DNA of 64,000 nt, from assembly GCF_013403925.1 (NCBI RefSeq), contig NZ_JABFDJ010000005.1, forward strand, positions 248,001 to 312,000. Reading direction: 5' to 3'. The DNA comes from Winogradskyella wichelsiae (GTDB lineage: Bacteria; Bacteroidota; Bacteroidia; Flavobacteriales; Flavobacteriaceae). Numbering within the stretch: the stretch's first letter is position 1; the number at the start of each line of letters is the position of its first letter. Both the position numbers and the translations under genes were made by a program. Positions 13,228 to 59,903 of this stretch are shown here, one piece after another. The notes below the pieces were generated by a model. The model had not been told where the DNA came from. It worked only from the letters and a program-made list of their open reading frames with translations, and did not search any database.

Positions 13228-16068
13228 ATGAAACATGCTAAATCAACACTTCTAATTTTATTAATACTTTTCACCGTTTGGTCTTGTAAAGAAAACGAGG
13301 AAAAAACAGAACCACAAGTAGAACAGGAAGCACAAGAATTTAAAGTCGATTATGAAAAATTCACTTTAGATAATGGCCTACAAGTCATTCTTCATGTTGA
13401 CAAATCAGATCCTGTAGCCGCTGTAGCCTTAACAGCACATGTAGGTTCTGCACGTGAAAAAGCAGGAAGAACAGGTTTTGCTCATTTATTTGAACATTTA
13501 CTATTCTTAGAATCTGAAAATCTTGGCAAAGGTGGTTTAGACCAAATGAGTGCTCGTATTGGTGGCTCTGGTGCTAATGGATCTACAAGTAGAGATCGCA
13601 CCAATTATTTTCAAACCGTACCCAAAGATGCCTTAGAAAAAATGATTTGGGCAGAAGCAGATAAATTGGGTTATTTTATTAATACTGTAACAGACCCTGT
13701 TTTAGCAAAAGAAAAACAAGTGGTTAAAAACGAAAAACGTCAGCGTGTAGACAACCAACCTTATGGTTTTAATTCTAGCGTTATAAATAGTAATTTATAC
13801 CCTGAAGGTCATCCTTACAGTTGGGAAGTTATTGGATCTTTAGAAGATTTACAAAATGCCACTTTAGAAGATGTTAAGGAGTTTTACAAACGTTGGTATG
13901 TACCAAATAACGTCACTTTAACCATTGCAGGAGATATTGATATTGCACAAACGAAAACTTGGGTAAAAAAGTATTTTGATGAAATCCCAAAAGGTGAAGA
14001 CATCCTTGATGTAAAAAAACAACCTGTAACTTTAACAGCGACAAAACAATTATATTACGAAGATAATTTTGCGCGCTTACCAAGGTTAACAATGGCTTGG
14101 CCAGGAGTACCGGAATACGATAAGGATTCTTATGCCCTAAGTGTCCTGACAGATTATTTATCTAATGGAAAAAAAGCACCATTAAATAAAGTCTTAGTTG
14201 AAAAAGAAAAGCTTACCGATAATGTACAATTTTATCAAAACAATGCTGAAATCGCAGGACAATTAATGCTGAGCGTTACCGCTTTTAATGCTACTCATTT
14301 AGACACTGTAGCAGCAGCAATAAAAGAAGGTTTAAAAGATTTTGAAACTCATGGTATTTCTGAAGCTGACTTAAATAGAATTAAAGCAGGACAAGAAACT
14401 GATTTTTACAGAGGACTCTCTAGTGTTTTAGGCAAAGGATTTCAGTTAGCTCAATATGAAATTTTTGCAGGTGATCCTGGTTTTATTAATCAAGATGTAC
14501 AACACATTTTAGCAGTCACTCCAGAAGATGTAATGCGTGTTTATAACACTTACATTAAAGGAAAGAATTTCATCGCAACTAGTGTTGTACCAAAAGGACA
14601 AGGTAACCTAATTTTAGAAAATTCTGAATTAGCAAATATCGTTGAAGAACAAATTATAGAAGGTGCTGAAGCTACTTTTGATGCTAGTATTGCGGCAGAT
14701 TATGAAAAAACACCAAGTAGTTTTGATCGCTCTCAAGAACCTGATTATGGAGAAAGTCCGGATTTAATAATTCCTAAAGTTTGGAAACAAGATTTAGCTT
14801 CTGGAATTAAAGTTTTCGGTATCGAAAATACAGAAGTTCCTTTAGTAGAATTTGAACTTGAAATAAAAGGAGGTTTACTGTTAGAACACATCGAAAAGGT
14901 TGGAGTTTCTAATCTTATGGCTAGATTGATGAGCAAGGGTACAAAAAACAAAACACCCGAAGCTTTAGAAAATGCTATTGAAAGTTTAGGTGCTCAAGTT
15001 TATAGTTACGCTACTGAAAATAGTGTTACTATCGCCGGGACTACTCTAGCCAAACATTTTGATGCCACTATGGACTTAGTAACGGAAATGTTATTAGAAC
15101 CACGTTGGGATGAAGACGAATTTCATTTATTAAAACAAAGTACGATTAGTGGTATTCAACGTCAAAAAGCAAATCCTAATAGTATAGCCTCTCATGAATT
15201 TGCTAAGCAACTATATGGCGAAAACAATATTTTAGCTTACAATAATAATGGTACAGAAACATCTGTAAACTCTATTACCATAGCAGATTTACAAAACTTC
15301 TACTCAGAAAAGTTAACACCTCAATTGACAAACTTTCATGTGGTAGGTTCTATTTCAGAAACAGAAGTTGTTAATGCTTTACAAACCATTAATAAAAACT
15401 GGAAATCTAAAGTGGTTACTATCCCTGAATTGCCTGAAGCAAAGTTCCCAGAAACTTCTAAAGTTTATTTTTATAATGTTCCTGGTGCTAAACAATCCGT
15501 TATAAAATTTGGTTCCCCTTCATTAAAAGCTACTGACGCAGATTATTATGCCGCTTCTGTTATGAATTACCGCTTAGGAGGAGGTAGTTTCGCTTCACAA
15601 TTAACACAAGAATTAAGAGAAGGAAAAGGCTATACTTATGGTATTCGCTCTGCGTTTAGTGGAGATGCAAACAAAGGAGAATTCGCAATTAATAGTGGTG
15701 TACGTACAAACGTAACTTATGAATCGGCAGCTTTAGTAAAAGAAATTTTAGAAAATTATGGAATTAATTTTACTGAAGATGATTTAGAAATTACAAAAGG
15801 TTACACTCTAAAAAGTAATGCTCGTGCTTTTGAAACGTTAGATGCTAAATTAAGTATGCTAAGTAATATTAGTAATTTGGGTTATGCCGATGATTATGCT
15901 AAACAACGTGAAGCTATTGTAAAAGCCTTAACCGTTGCTGATGTACAAGCTTTAGTTAAAAAGTACATTACACCAAATCAAATGATTTATGTGATTGTTG
16001 GTGATGCTAAAACACAATTAAGCAAGTTGAAGGCATTAGGATTTGGTGCTGCTGTGTTGTTGAATTAA
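13228..16068 (+). CDS. M16-family (insulinase-like) peptidase, two-lobed lipoprotein
   Basis: 946 residues. The signal ends in a lipobox-like FTVWSC (C20), so the protein is probably a lipoprotein. The inverted zinc motif HxxEH is HLFEH (H86, E89, H90), with a downstream glutamate in QVVKNEKRQRVDNQP. It has two M16 halves: the N-terminal half (about 40-480) has the active site; the C-terminal half (about 510-940) includes RLGGGSFASQLTQELREGKG, the R/Y-type substrate-binding segment typical of the partner half. The family degrades peptides in a clam-shell chamber. It is downstream of the M14 gene and may be co-expressed with it. Confidence 0.92.
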   Translation: MKHAKSTLLILLILFTVWSCKENEEKTEPQVEQEAQEFKVDYEKFTLDNGLQVILHVDKSDPVAAVALTAHVGSAREKAGRTGFAHLFEHLLFLESENLGKGGLDQMSARIGGSGANGSTSRDRTNYFQTVPKDALEKMIWAEADKLGYFINTVTDPVLAKEKQVVKNEKRQRVDNQPYGFNSSVINSNLYPEGHPYSWEVIGSLEDLQNATLEDVKEFYKRWYVPNNVTLTIAGDIDIAQTKTWVKKYFDEIPKGEDILDVKKQPVTLTATKQLYYEDNFARLPRLTMAWPGVPEYDKDSYALSVLTDYLSNGKKAPLNKVLVEKEKLTDNVQFYQNNAEIAGQLMLSVTAFNATHLDTVAAAIKEGLKDFETHGISEADLNRIKAGQETDFYRGLSSVLGKGFQLAQYEIFAGDPGFINQDVQHILAVTPEDVMRVYNTYIKGKNFIATSVVPKGQGNLILENSELANIVEEQIIEGAEATFDASIAADYEKTPSSFDRSQEPDYGESPDLIIPKVWKQDLASGIKVFGIENTEVPLVEFELEIKGGLLLEHIEKVGVSNLMARLMSKGTKNKTPEALENAIESLGAQVYSYATENSVTIAGTTLAKHFDATMDLVTEMLLEPRWDEDEFHLLKQSTISGIQRQKANPNSIASHEFAKQLYGENNILAYNNNGTETSVNSITIADLQNFYSEKLTPQLTNFHVVGSISETEVVNALQTINKNWKSKVVTIPELPEAKFPETSKVYFYNVPGAKQSVIKFGSPSLKATDADYYAASVMNYRLGGGSFASQLTQELREGKGYTYGIRSAFSGDANKGEFAINSGVRTNVTYESAALVKEILENYGINFTEDDLEITKGYTLKSNARAFETLDAKLSMLSNISNLGYADDYAKQREAIVKALTVADVQALVKKYITPNQMIYVIVGDAKTQLSKLKALGFGAAVLLN

Positions 16069-57529: not shown

Positions 57530-58624
57530 CTAACTCGGAGGATAGCAAAGTAAAATTTTAGATGCCTCATGAGATCTAAAAGTAATTTCTAAAATCGCTG
57601 CTGATATAAAGATTTCATCCCCTTGTTTATAATCGTATTGTTTTCCGTTGCAATCTATGACGCCATCGCCTGAATAAATTACCGCAACGTAGAAACATCC
57701 ATTTCCTTTAATGGTATGTTCTCCATCTAAAAGCAGTTCGCTTAACCCAAAACAATTAGTATGCTTTTTATTGAATAGTGTTTTGAATGTATGTTCAGCT
57801 GACTCCTCTAAAACTTCAGGAGTTATTTTCCATTCATTTAAAGCTTCGTCAATAGTAAAAGTATCATAATGGAAACATTCTAACATTTTTTCTTCGCCTA
57901 CACCTTGATGAATTAATTCTGGACCTATTTTTAAACCTGCAGGCGTTGTTTTTTCAACACGCATCGTATAATCCGTAGGTTCTTGTACTTCCATTAAAAA
58001 ACAGCCTGCACCAATAGCATGTGGTACACCACCGTAAATCATAAAAGCATCACCTGGTTTTACCTCGATTTTATGTAAACAATCTAACATTCCTTCAATG
58101 TTTTGATTCTCAAAATGCGTTTTCCAGATCTCTTTAGTGACGTGTTTTTTAAACCCCATATAAACCACAGGTTTTTCACCATCAATTTCTCTTGTGTTTA
58201 AAACATACCAAGATTCTGTTTTACCAAATTCTGAATTAAAAACAGTTTTTGCATAGTTTTTATCTGGGTGTACTTGAACTGTTAAACGCTCCATAGAGTC
58301 TAACATTTTAATGAGCACACCTGTAGTTCCGAATTTTTCAGCAAGATCTTTACCTAAATATAAATCTAAATCAGAATTAATTAAATCCTTTAAAGGAAAA
58401 ACACCATCTTCAGTTTCTATCAGAGAAAGCCCTTCGTCTTCAGGTCTGCCATTTCCGCGCGCTGTTATTGTAGACATTATCCATTGTTCAGGCATTTGTC
58501 CATCTACTTCTGGTGTCATTTTTTTCCATCGATCAATTAAAGCTCCTCCCTCATAAGTTCTCCAAACTCTATTAGATTTTTGTTTTAAAGGTATGTGTGC
58601 ATATTTCTGTAAGTCCTCACTCAT
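57530..58624 (-). CDS. manA: class I mannose-6-phosphate isomerase
   Basis: Interconverts mannose-6-phosphate and fructose-6-phosphate. 364 residues from the ATG at 58622-58624 (MSEDLQKYAHIPLKQ); an upstream ATG 12 codons earlier is rejected because it would overlap the transporter gene end. Zinc ligands are visible in TVQVHPDKNYA (Gln and His), a glutamate in FGKTESWYVL, and the histidine of YGGVPHAIGAG. Middle gene of the Nramp-manA-SDR run, 25 bases after the transporter stop. Confidence 0.9.
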   Translation of the reverse strand: MSEDLQKYAHIPLKQKSNRVWRTYEGGALIDRWKKMTPEVDGQMPEQWIMSTITARGNGRPEDEGLSLIETEDGVFPLKDLINSDLDLYLGKDLAEKFGTTGVLIKMLDSMERLTVQVHPDKNYAKTVFNSEFGKTESWYVLNTREIDGEKPVVYMGFKKHVTKEIWKTHFENQNIEGMLDCLHKIEVKPGDAFMIYGGVPHAIGAGCFLMEVQEPTDYTMRVEKTTPAGLKIGPELIHQGVGEEKMLECFHYDTFTIDEALNEWKITPEVLEESAEHTFKTLFNKKHTNCFGLSELLLDGEHTIKGNGCFYVAVIYSGDGVIDCNGKQYDYKQGDEIFISAAILEITFRSHEASKILLCYPPS

Positions 58625-58649: not shown

Positions 58650-59903
58650 TTATTGTACAAAATCTATAAATCCTAAAATCGCAACATATAACATGAAACA
58701 ATTAAAAATGAATGTTGCTACTAAAGCTATATTCATCCAAAGTGAAGGTTTATGTGATTTCATTAAGTCTGATTTATTCAGTAAAATTATTAAAAACAGT
58801 GTTATTAATGGCATTACAAAAGGACTAAATGCTTGGGAAGCGATTAAGATCCATACAGGTTTCCCCCCTAAAAAAGGTACTATTAATCCAGATAATGCTA
58901 CTAAAACCACTATAACTTTAAATAGTGATCTTTTCATATTTCGTGGTGTATCTGTATAATCTGCAATTAACCAAGGAAATAAAAGTAGGTTCGGGAAAAT
59001 TGATGATAAGCCCGCACCAACAATACCTAATGTAAATAATGTTAAAGCAAAATCGCCCGCCCATGGCCCCAAAGCGGACATTAAATCTGTAGCATCATTT
59101 ACGGGTGTTCCTTTAAAATAGAGTGTTCCTGTTGCACTAATCATAATGGCTAGACTTATTAAAAAAGTCATGACCATTGCAGACATTGCATCTTTATTTT
59201 CTTTTTTTAAATCGTTTAAGCCCCATTTTTCTTCATGTACTAAAATACTACGAGATGCCAAACAAACCCCTGCCATTGTAGTCCCAACAATTCCTGCTAT
59301 GATTAAACCTGTATTATCACCTGTTGGTAAATCTGGAAAAAACTCAATGATTGATTTTCCTGACTCCTTTAAAACCATAAAACTGGTAAAAATAAAAGCG
59401 AGCGCCATAAAGCCAACCATAAGACTCATGGCTTTTATAAAATTCTCATGCTTTCCTGTCCAGAAAAGAGCAATTAATAAAGCAATAAAAAAAGTTGCAA
59501 TTACAGGCTTGTTTAAAAAGGAGATTGATGTTTTTACCGAAATCCATTCCATACAAACCTCAGCAACAACTCCCATAACTCCAATAACCGAAGAAATAAT
59601 GGATACTGCTAAAGCGGTTATAATAAATAGTGTAATAGGCTTACCAAATGTTTTTTTGAACAATAACATAAGCGTATTACCTGTAACGATGGTCAGTTTG
59701 CTAATTGAAATCAATAAAAAATAAGTAAAAAAACAGGATAACAGAAGAGCCCAAGACAAGCTTAATCCAAATTTAGCACCAGAAACCACCATTGAGGTCA
59801 CACTTCCGGTTCCGACGACATAGCCAATAATAAAAAAGGCGGGGCCAAAATCTTGAATTTTCTTTTTGAATTTAACGGCATAAGTAGGACTACTTGTACT
59901 CAT
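58650..59903 (-). CDS. Nramp-fold transporter lacking the canonical metal-binding residues
   Basis: 417 residues, about 11 membrane helices. Helix 1 aligns with Nramp (GPAF at 20-23), but the metal-binding DPGN is GTGS (31-34), so both ligands (Asp, Asn) are lost. Helix 6 aligns at GTTM (207-210), but the MPH metal motif is AGV (211-213). So it keeps the Nramp fold but not the divalent-metal site. Automatic annotation would call it a metal transporter. It is the first gene of a run with mannose-6-phosphate isomerase and a mannonate-type SDR, suggesting a sugar or sugar-acid substrate. Confidence 0.85.
   Translation of the reverse strand: MSTSSPTYAVKFKKKIQDFGPAFFIIGYVVGTGSVTSMVVSGAKFGLSLSWALLLSCFFTYFLLISISKLTIVTGNTLMLLFKKTFGKPITLFIITALAVSIISSVIGVMGVVAEVCMEWISVKTSISFLNKPVIATFFIALLIALFWTGKHENFIKAMSLMVGFMALAFIFTSFMVLKESGKSIIEFFPDLPTGDNTGLIIAGIVGTTMAGVCLASRSILVHEEKWGLNDLKKENKDAMSAMVMTFLISLAIMISATGTLYFKGTPVNDATDLMSALGPWAGDFALTLFTLGIVGAGLSSIFPNLLLFPWLIADYTDTPRNMKRSLFKVIVVLVALSGLIVPFLGGKPVWILIASQAFSPFVMPLITLFLIILLNKSDLMKSHKPSLWMNIALVATFIFNCFMLYVAILGFIDFVQ

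Follow-up and report, generated by a model that had tools for sequence, protein, structure and literature searches.

The window analyzed here, a 64,000-nucleotide stretch of Winogradskyella wichelsiae, holds an operon of three genes on the minus strand: an ORF for an Nramp-fold transporter of 417 amino acids (58650..59903), which belongs to what we term the GTGS clade; a gene for a ManA-like protein of 364 amino acids in the type I phosphomannose isomerase (PMI) family (57530..58624), a proposed D-mannuronate isomerase; and a gene for an SDR of the D-mannonate oxidoreductase family PRK08277 (56671..57483), a proposed fructuronate reductase. As the preliminary description had it, the ManA-like gene, whose ATG was read from the sequence at 58624, begins 25 bases past the transporter stop codon, and the SDR gene begins 46 bases past the end of the ManA-like gene. 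The SDR matched NF006132 at 356.6 bits (cut-off 281). The ManA-like protein had been called a mannose-6-phosphate isomerase, and the family part of that name stands, with PF21621 and PF20511 both matched above their cut-offs, but the protein is a divergent one that scored 93.7 bits against TIGR00218, below the cut-off of 116.2 bits. In a region aligned to 1qwr, its residues Q129, H131, E149, H214 and R234 (numbered on the 376-residue ORF) are kept in 36 of 36 relatives; we take the Q, H, E and H to be the zinc site of type I PMI and the R to be the catalytic arginine. Two further ManA genes in the same genome exceed the TIGR00218 cut-off, at 159 and 153 bits.

Matches of at least 200 bits to the ManA-like protein were found in 5 of 199 genomes, namely the four that have a window-type Nramp and a fifth (G037) in which the gene adjoins another GTGS Nramp. 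The two genes do not always form an operon. In one of the four genomes, G129, the ManA-like gene and the window-type Nramp are on different contigs, the latter at a contig end, and no Nramp was present in the 19 kb fetched around the ManA-like gene (L220); at seven of 27 type-1 ManA-like loci (one counted twice, L034/L091) the ManA-like gene is on the strand opposite to Nramp (L034, L080, L082, L084, L086, L087 and L091). Winogradskyella arenosi (L074) has the same three genes between the same outer flanks as the window operon, and in W. vidalii (L078), with those flanks again, UxuA comes next after the SDR. A contiguous Nramp–ManA-like–SDR–UxuA arrangement with a window-type Nramp was found at six loci (L078, L079, L081, L083, L088 and L089). 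UxuA is absent from the window operon; its gene is on contig 22 of the genome, together with those for UxaC and an SDR. Contig 11 of that genome carries an alginate locus with SusCD, KDPG aldolase, KdgK, an SDR, an MFS carrier, a KdgF-like cupin, PL17 and PL6.

Direct reading of the transporter sequence, together with alignment to DraNramp, bore out the earlier claim that its two metal motifs are replaced. Helix 1 (FIIGYVVGTGSVTSM) has GTGS at residues 31-34 (codons 59802..59813, minus strand) in place of DPGN, and helix 6 (GTTMAGVCLASRS) has AGV at residues 211-213 (codons 59265..59273, minus strand) in place of MPH. In the local-pair alignment on which all residue mapping to DraNramp is based, the metal-site positions D56, N59, M230 and H232 correspond to G31, S34, A211 and V213, and the helix-3 residues D131 and E134 correspond to S105 and G108, such that the Asp and Glu of the proton path are also missing, while the gate residues T228 and Q378 are retained as T209 and Q357. 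A second, fixed-column alignment gave the same result for helix 1, was off by one residue in helix 3 and slipped later, and was not used. The helix-6b, inner-gate histidine H237 of DraNramp aligns with R218 (codon 59250..59252, minus strand). It is important to note that R218 is no proof of carboxylate binding, because it aligns with the inner-gate histidine and not with the central site, nor is it by itself a uronate determinant, because it is fixed also in non-uronate settings. The protein has the Nramp/LeuT fold and matched PF01566 at 175.8 bits (cut-off 29.8) over profile positions 1-354 of 357. It also scored 81.6 bits against the NCBI "Nramp family divalent metal transporter" model (cut-off 50), and the NCBI Nramp metal-transporter models matched 66 of 67 clade members at an E value of 1e-13 or better, which we estimate to be close to the 50-bit cut-off of NF037982.

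Residues were counted in 166 non-redundant Nramp proteins, of which 130 fall in the GTGS clade (80 from a motif-using scan, 49 from motif-free protein and profile searches, and the window protein). GTGS is present in all 129 clade members that are readable at helix 1 (one row is truncated), and none of the 130 has Asp31, Met211 or His213; the known acidic residues of the proton path are lost across the clade as well. An arginine at position 218 is found in 130 of 130, versus a histidine in 31 and a glutamine in 5 of the 36 other Nramp proteins. At least 547 relatives were recovered by the motif-using scan, in which the frequency of GTGS is not independent evidence because the motif is one of its two patterns. 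The motif-free protein search of 199 same-family genomes gave graded identities to the window protein, of 75-79% in three genomes, 33-39% for most of a second group and 24-29% for other Nramp proteins, and all fetched proteins of the top two groups that cover helix 1 have GTGS. Beside the window there were 38 matches of at least 176 bits, 37 of which were fetched (L034-L070); a partial match at the edge of a contig (G037:C153) was omitted, as was a 91-bit fragment (G037:C123). A profile search of 395 genomes of the phylum found at least 22 matches in at least 21 genomes at 397 bits or more (window included) and the next at 191 bits, counts that are lower bounds with at most four candidates scored per genome. 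These matches rule out a single odd protein. A decayed Nramp pseudogene is ruled out by the open and conserved frame and by at least 24 relatives in named genomes that are 68-89% identical (L074-L097). Among the matches listed, clade members occur in phyla that include Bacteroidota, Acidobacteriota, Pseudomonadota, Planctomycetota and Calditrichota.

As to phylogeny, the Nramp homologs with GTGS form a single clade. In our trees, which were quick searches with SH-aLRT support only (the second without L174, a long branch), the GTGS proteins lie on one side of a branch with support of 100, apart from canonical Nramp, PxpT-like and EleNRMT sequences, the placement of EleNRMT itself being unsure where long branches meet. 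A small group adjoins the clade as its sister (SH-aLRT 97); its members (L042:7663-8913, L048, L071, L189 and L191) have GPGS in helix 1 and YQS in helix 6, likewise without the metal motif, and their gene neighbors are one that is weakly DHDPS-like and another that has no Pfam match (L042:6588-7610).

In order to describe gene neighborhoods, classes were defined as BLAST clusters named through the Pfam matches of their representatives rather than of every gene, and the PL6, PL7, PL17, UxuA, UxaC, KdgK and KDPG aldolase clusters were designated core uronate genes, with SDR, SusCD and ManA-like genes excluded. The co-occurrence with uronate genes that had been proposed as a check was apparent: a core uronate gene was present within 10 kb at 25 of the 37 motif-unselected GTGS loci versus 1 of 21 controls, which are mostly not metal loci because 17 of the 21 have a pxpA-like neighbor. 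The controls comprised 20 other Nramp paralogs from GTGS-bearing genomes plus L188 of the window's genome, the sole DPGN/MPH protein among them. In the motif-using set (80 loci minus L101, L108 and L110, which had no match with the ORF caller) the count was 33 of 77, leaving 44 of these loci, and 12 of the 37 motif-unselected ones, with no core uronate gene. The two sets overlap, with L034/L091, L036/L095 and L037/L121 apparently being the same loci. The neighbor tally covered 134 of the 146 proteins within two genes of the 37 motif-unselected transporters (11 that were cut, below 100 or above 820 amino acids, plus one more, were left out), and its commonest Pfam matches were alginate lyase 2 (19), SDR (11), SKI kinase (11), 6-phosphogluconate dehydrogenase (10), PfkB (7) and KDPG aldolase (7), with SusC under-counted because cut or longer neighbors were excluded. 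No metal-homeostasis family was among the 25 commonest of the 87 Pfam families in these 134 neighbors, as the preliminary description would predict, although a rarer metal family may occur among the others. A fusion of a SKI-matching kinase to 6-phosphogluconate dehydrogenase lies beside GTGS Nramp genes in alginate loci (L057:10295-12184), and we read its kinase domain as gluconokinase-like.

The settings differ between subclades. They include alginate loci, KdgK/KDPG-aldolase operons, loci with NagA, NagB-like or GH20 proteins, loci with GH38/GH92 mannosidases, a UxaC–SDR–Nramp–UxuA order (L052, with its UxuA confirmed by Pfam, and L060), and clusters with CoA transferase and enoyl-CoA hydratase. 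No telling neighbor was seen at certain loci, among them the majority of those from Acidobacteriota. The SusC proteins of L035, L092, L151, L129, L152, L094, L087 and L080 are 63-80% identical to that of the alginate locus in the window's genome. One Paraglaciecola alginate locus contains two different GTGS proteins (L141:9953-11206 and 14246-15484), one beside UxuA and a ManA-like gene and the other near PL7, a GntK-like kinase and an SDR, possibly one carrier per alginate-derived monomer.

A natural gene swap was observed in Formosa. Between L092 and L151 ten flanking genes, including SusC, SusD and the ManA-like gene, are 85-98% identical, whereas the transporters between SusD and ManA-like are 37.5% identical, the same slot being filled in the two by proteins of distant GTGS subclades. 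Similarly, PL6, PL7, ManA-like, PL17 and cupin are 77-92% identical between L085 and L152 while the Nramp proteins are 37% identical; here the SusC proteins differ too (33%), and the SDR and UxuA of L152 are missing at that place in L085. In the Alteromonadaceae (Paraglaciecola/Alteromonas; L141 and L149) UxuA, Nramp and ManA-like genes occur with a mannitol-dehydrogenase-family protein, which matches the fructuronate reductase model but is below both curated cut-offs; it scores highest against the D-arabinitol dehydrogenase model. The parts thus change while the path stays, and we therefore assign the transport step of this path to the GTGS protein.

Since the residues that hold the metal are lost and the genes are set among those for algal sugar acids, the window protein is, as judged from sequence, probably a carrier of sugars or sugar acids and not of metals, as are its near relatives. 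The suggestion in the preliminary description that something other than a metal is transported, such as a hexuronate or sugar acid, is supported, as a predicted function, by the single clade and its co-occurrence with uronate genes; its substrate can be refined to D-mannuronate as the best guess, rather than mannonate or mannose. Our best explanation, held with moderate confidence, is a secondary transporter of the Nramp fold in which the metal site has been replaced by an organic-solute site and which carries D-mannuronate. Counting against it are the clade loci that have no core uronate gene, the looser ManA-like linkage in G129 and at the seven opposite-strand loci, the type-2 ManA-like loci with mannosidases, the subclades found with NagA/NagB-like or CoA-transferase genes, and the absence of UxuA from the window operon. 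Taken separately, the parts of this reading differ in strength: that the solute is organic and not a metal is very likely, that it is a uronate rather than another sugar in the window operon is fairly likely, and for D-mannuronate specifically the chances are about even. What was observed is the fold, residue loss, clade, gene order and co-occurrence, and that the genome encodes UxuA, KdgK, KDPG aldolase and alginate lyases; the substrate, the ManA-like activity, the direction of transport and the coupling ion are matters of inference.

In the proposed pathway, D-mannuronate, a saturated sugar acid left by alginate cutting, would be carried across the inner membrane by alternating access, as the fold suggests by analogy with Nramp/APC and other LeuT-fold carriers. 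The ManA-like protein, in a step that is our own proposal, would then convert D-mannuronate to D-fructuronate, the carboxylate occupying the position that the phosphate has in mannose-6-phosphate; the SDR would reduce D-fructuronate to D-mannonate; UxuA, encoded elsewhere in the genome, would dehydrate D-mannonate to KDG; and KdgK and KDPG aldolase would complete the pathway. A mannuronate isomerase activity was reportedly described long ago in Aeromonas, and our literature search, which did not cover most subscription papers, returned no match for "mannuronate isomerase". The steps from D-fructuronate through D-mannonate to KDG are those of the known UxuB/UxuA route, as given in the available text of PMC6353982.

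The ManA-like gene could also indicate an importer of D-mannose or another neutral sugar, in which case the enzyme would isomerize mannose or be a true mannose-6-phosphate isomerase, in agreement with the kept zinc and catalytic residues. Pairs of type-2 ManA-like and GTGS genes do occur near GH38/GH92 mannosidases at three of nine type-2 loci (L126, L138, with an aldose 1-epimerase, and L139), which suggests mannose use there; four of the nine have uronate genes and two have neither. At the 27 type-1 loci, however, GH38/GH92 genes of these clusters were found at none and uronate genes at 18. Given also the mannonate oxidoreductase in the window operon and the two other ManA proteins that the genome already has above the cut-off, we consider mannose unlikely as the substrate of the window protein. 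Somewhat less improbable, although still a minority reading, is import of another acid derived from alginate or glucuronan, that is, an unsaturated or keto uronate, D-glucuronate or D-mannonate. Such a substrate would suit the GTGS subclades whose loci contain alginate lyases, KdgK and KDPG aldolase and those with the UxaC–SDR–Nramp–UxuA order, but the MFS carrier of the genome's alginate locus presumably serves the unsaturated branch already, the UxaC and UxuA of this genome lie elsewhere, and the ManA-like gene would be left without a role.

A divalent cation carrier that supplies metal cofactors to the operon enzymes (Zn for the ManA-like protein, Mn or Fe for UxuA) is a further reading, for which the Nramp fold speaks. 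The missing ligands alone are not proof that metal transport was lost, because YcsG of B. subtilis, the Nramp protein of the pxp operon, was reported as a Mn importer that raises cellular Mn (PMC10448178, available text), and EleNRMT, the solved structure nearest in sequence, is a Mg2+/Mn2+ carrier, the NRMT and NRAT branches having changed metal while losing ligands according to the available text of PMC10115441. Against this, none of the clade members read has any of the metal side-chain ligands D, N and M, the arginine is fixed, the window's genome has a DPGN/MPH Nramp elsewhere (L001), and the clade is also found in loci for amino sugars or with mannosidases; we regard a retained cation function as very unlikely.

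Beyond the window, the D-mannuronate reading can be extended to a large unrecognized family of sugar and sugar-acid importers hidden within the "metal-specific" Nramp family, an idea to which we give even chances. Its subclades would serve different monomers: D-mannuronate for the window type, other alginate-derived acids, mannose at GH38/GH92 loci, N-acetylglucosamine or related amino sugars at loci with NagA/NagB-like or GH20 proteins, and, in the roughly one in ten complete E. coli genomes searched that have a member, a CoA-activated acid; the missing gene for D-mannuronate isomerase would lie in the window operon. The E. coli clade member, 38% identical to the window protein, matched 546 of the 5,426 complete genomes, and in 545 of these the match spans 80% of the query or more. 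Gene order was taken from one intact annotated copy (E. coli SK1144, L222:2335-9322), in which a LacI regulator, CoA transferase, enoyl-CoA hydratase, the GTGS Nramp and an FAD oxidoreductase (flavoprotein) lie in that order between dnaB and qorA. Some GTGS proteins of Flavobacteriaceae (L097, L098 and L109) likewise have a related CoA transferase/hydratase cluster next to them. A further copy, broken and unannotated, is on an 834-kb E. coli "plasmid" (L221, CP054241.1) that is probably a mis-labelled piece of chromosome because it carries the usual chromosomal genes tyrB, alr, dnaB and dusA. If the extended reading is true, hundreds of Nramp annotations are wrong (at least 547 relatives in the scan), one and the same scaffold has had its metal site remade to hold a sugar, and there is a new route for saturated mannuronate in marine alginate degradation; the Formosa gene swap and the E. 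coli copy make the sugar-carrier reading directly testable.

Nramp proteins are textbook metal transporters. With canonical Nramp/MntH proteins (SLC11, e.g., DraNramp) the window protein has in common the fold, length, Pfam family and both gate residues, but it lacks the equivalents of D56, N59, M230, H232, H237, D131 and E134, and the GTGS proteins form their own clade, often in carbohydrate loci. No paper assigning sugars or uronates to Nramp proteins was found in our literature search, which left most subscription papers outside its coverage, and for an organic substrate in this family there is one contested precedent, YcsG/PxpT. An "Nramp, metal-ion transporter" is drawn inside an Alteromonas alginate locus in the Figure S3 legend of PMC6431674; this protein, compared here by its label only, resembles the GTGS genes in its alginate setting and is named a metal transporter. 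The PxpT/YcsG branch is like the window protein in that an Nramp family member lies in a catabolic operon for an organic acid, and PxpT of C. glutamicum was required for growth on 5-oxoproline, with metal transport not excluded by the authors (PMC13274462, available text). Our comparison with this branch rests on pxp-linked proteins of Flavobacteriaceae rather than on the PxpT and YcsG sequences themselves. In those proteins, encoded beside pxpA-like genes (L190 and L192-L207), the metal Asp and Met are likewise missing, a pattern that fits a 5-oxoproline substrate better than a metal as far as their motifs indicate, but they have GPGT (GPGS in L206) and VPY, keep the helix-6b histidine and fall in a separate clade, whereas the window protein has neither pxpABC neighbors nor the GPGT/VPY motif. 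The best PDB sequence match to the window protein is EleNRMT (7qia), of the NRMT magnesium transporters, in which the proton-path residues are similarly replaced, as described in the available text of PMC10115441, but which keeps the helix-1 Asp (DAGG) where the window protein has G31.
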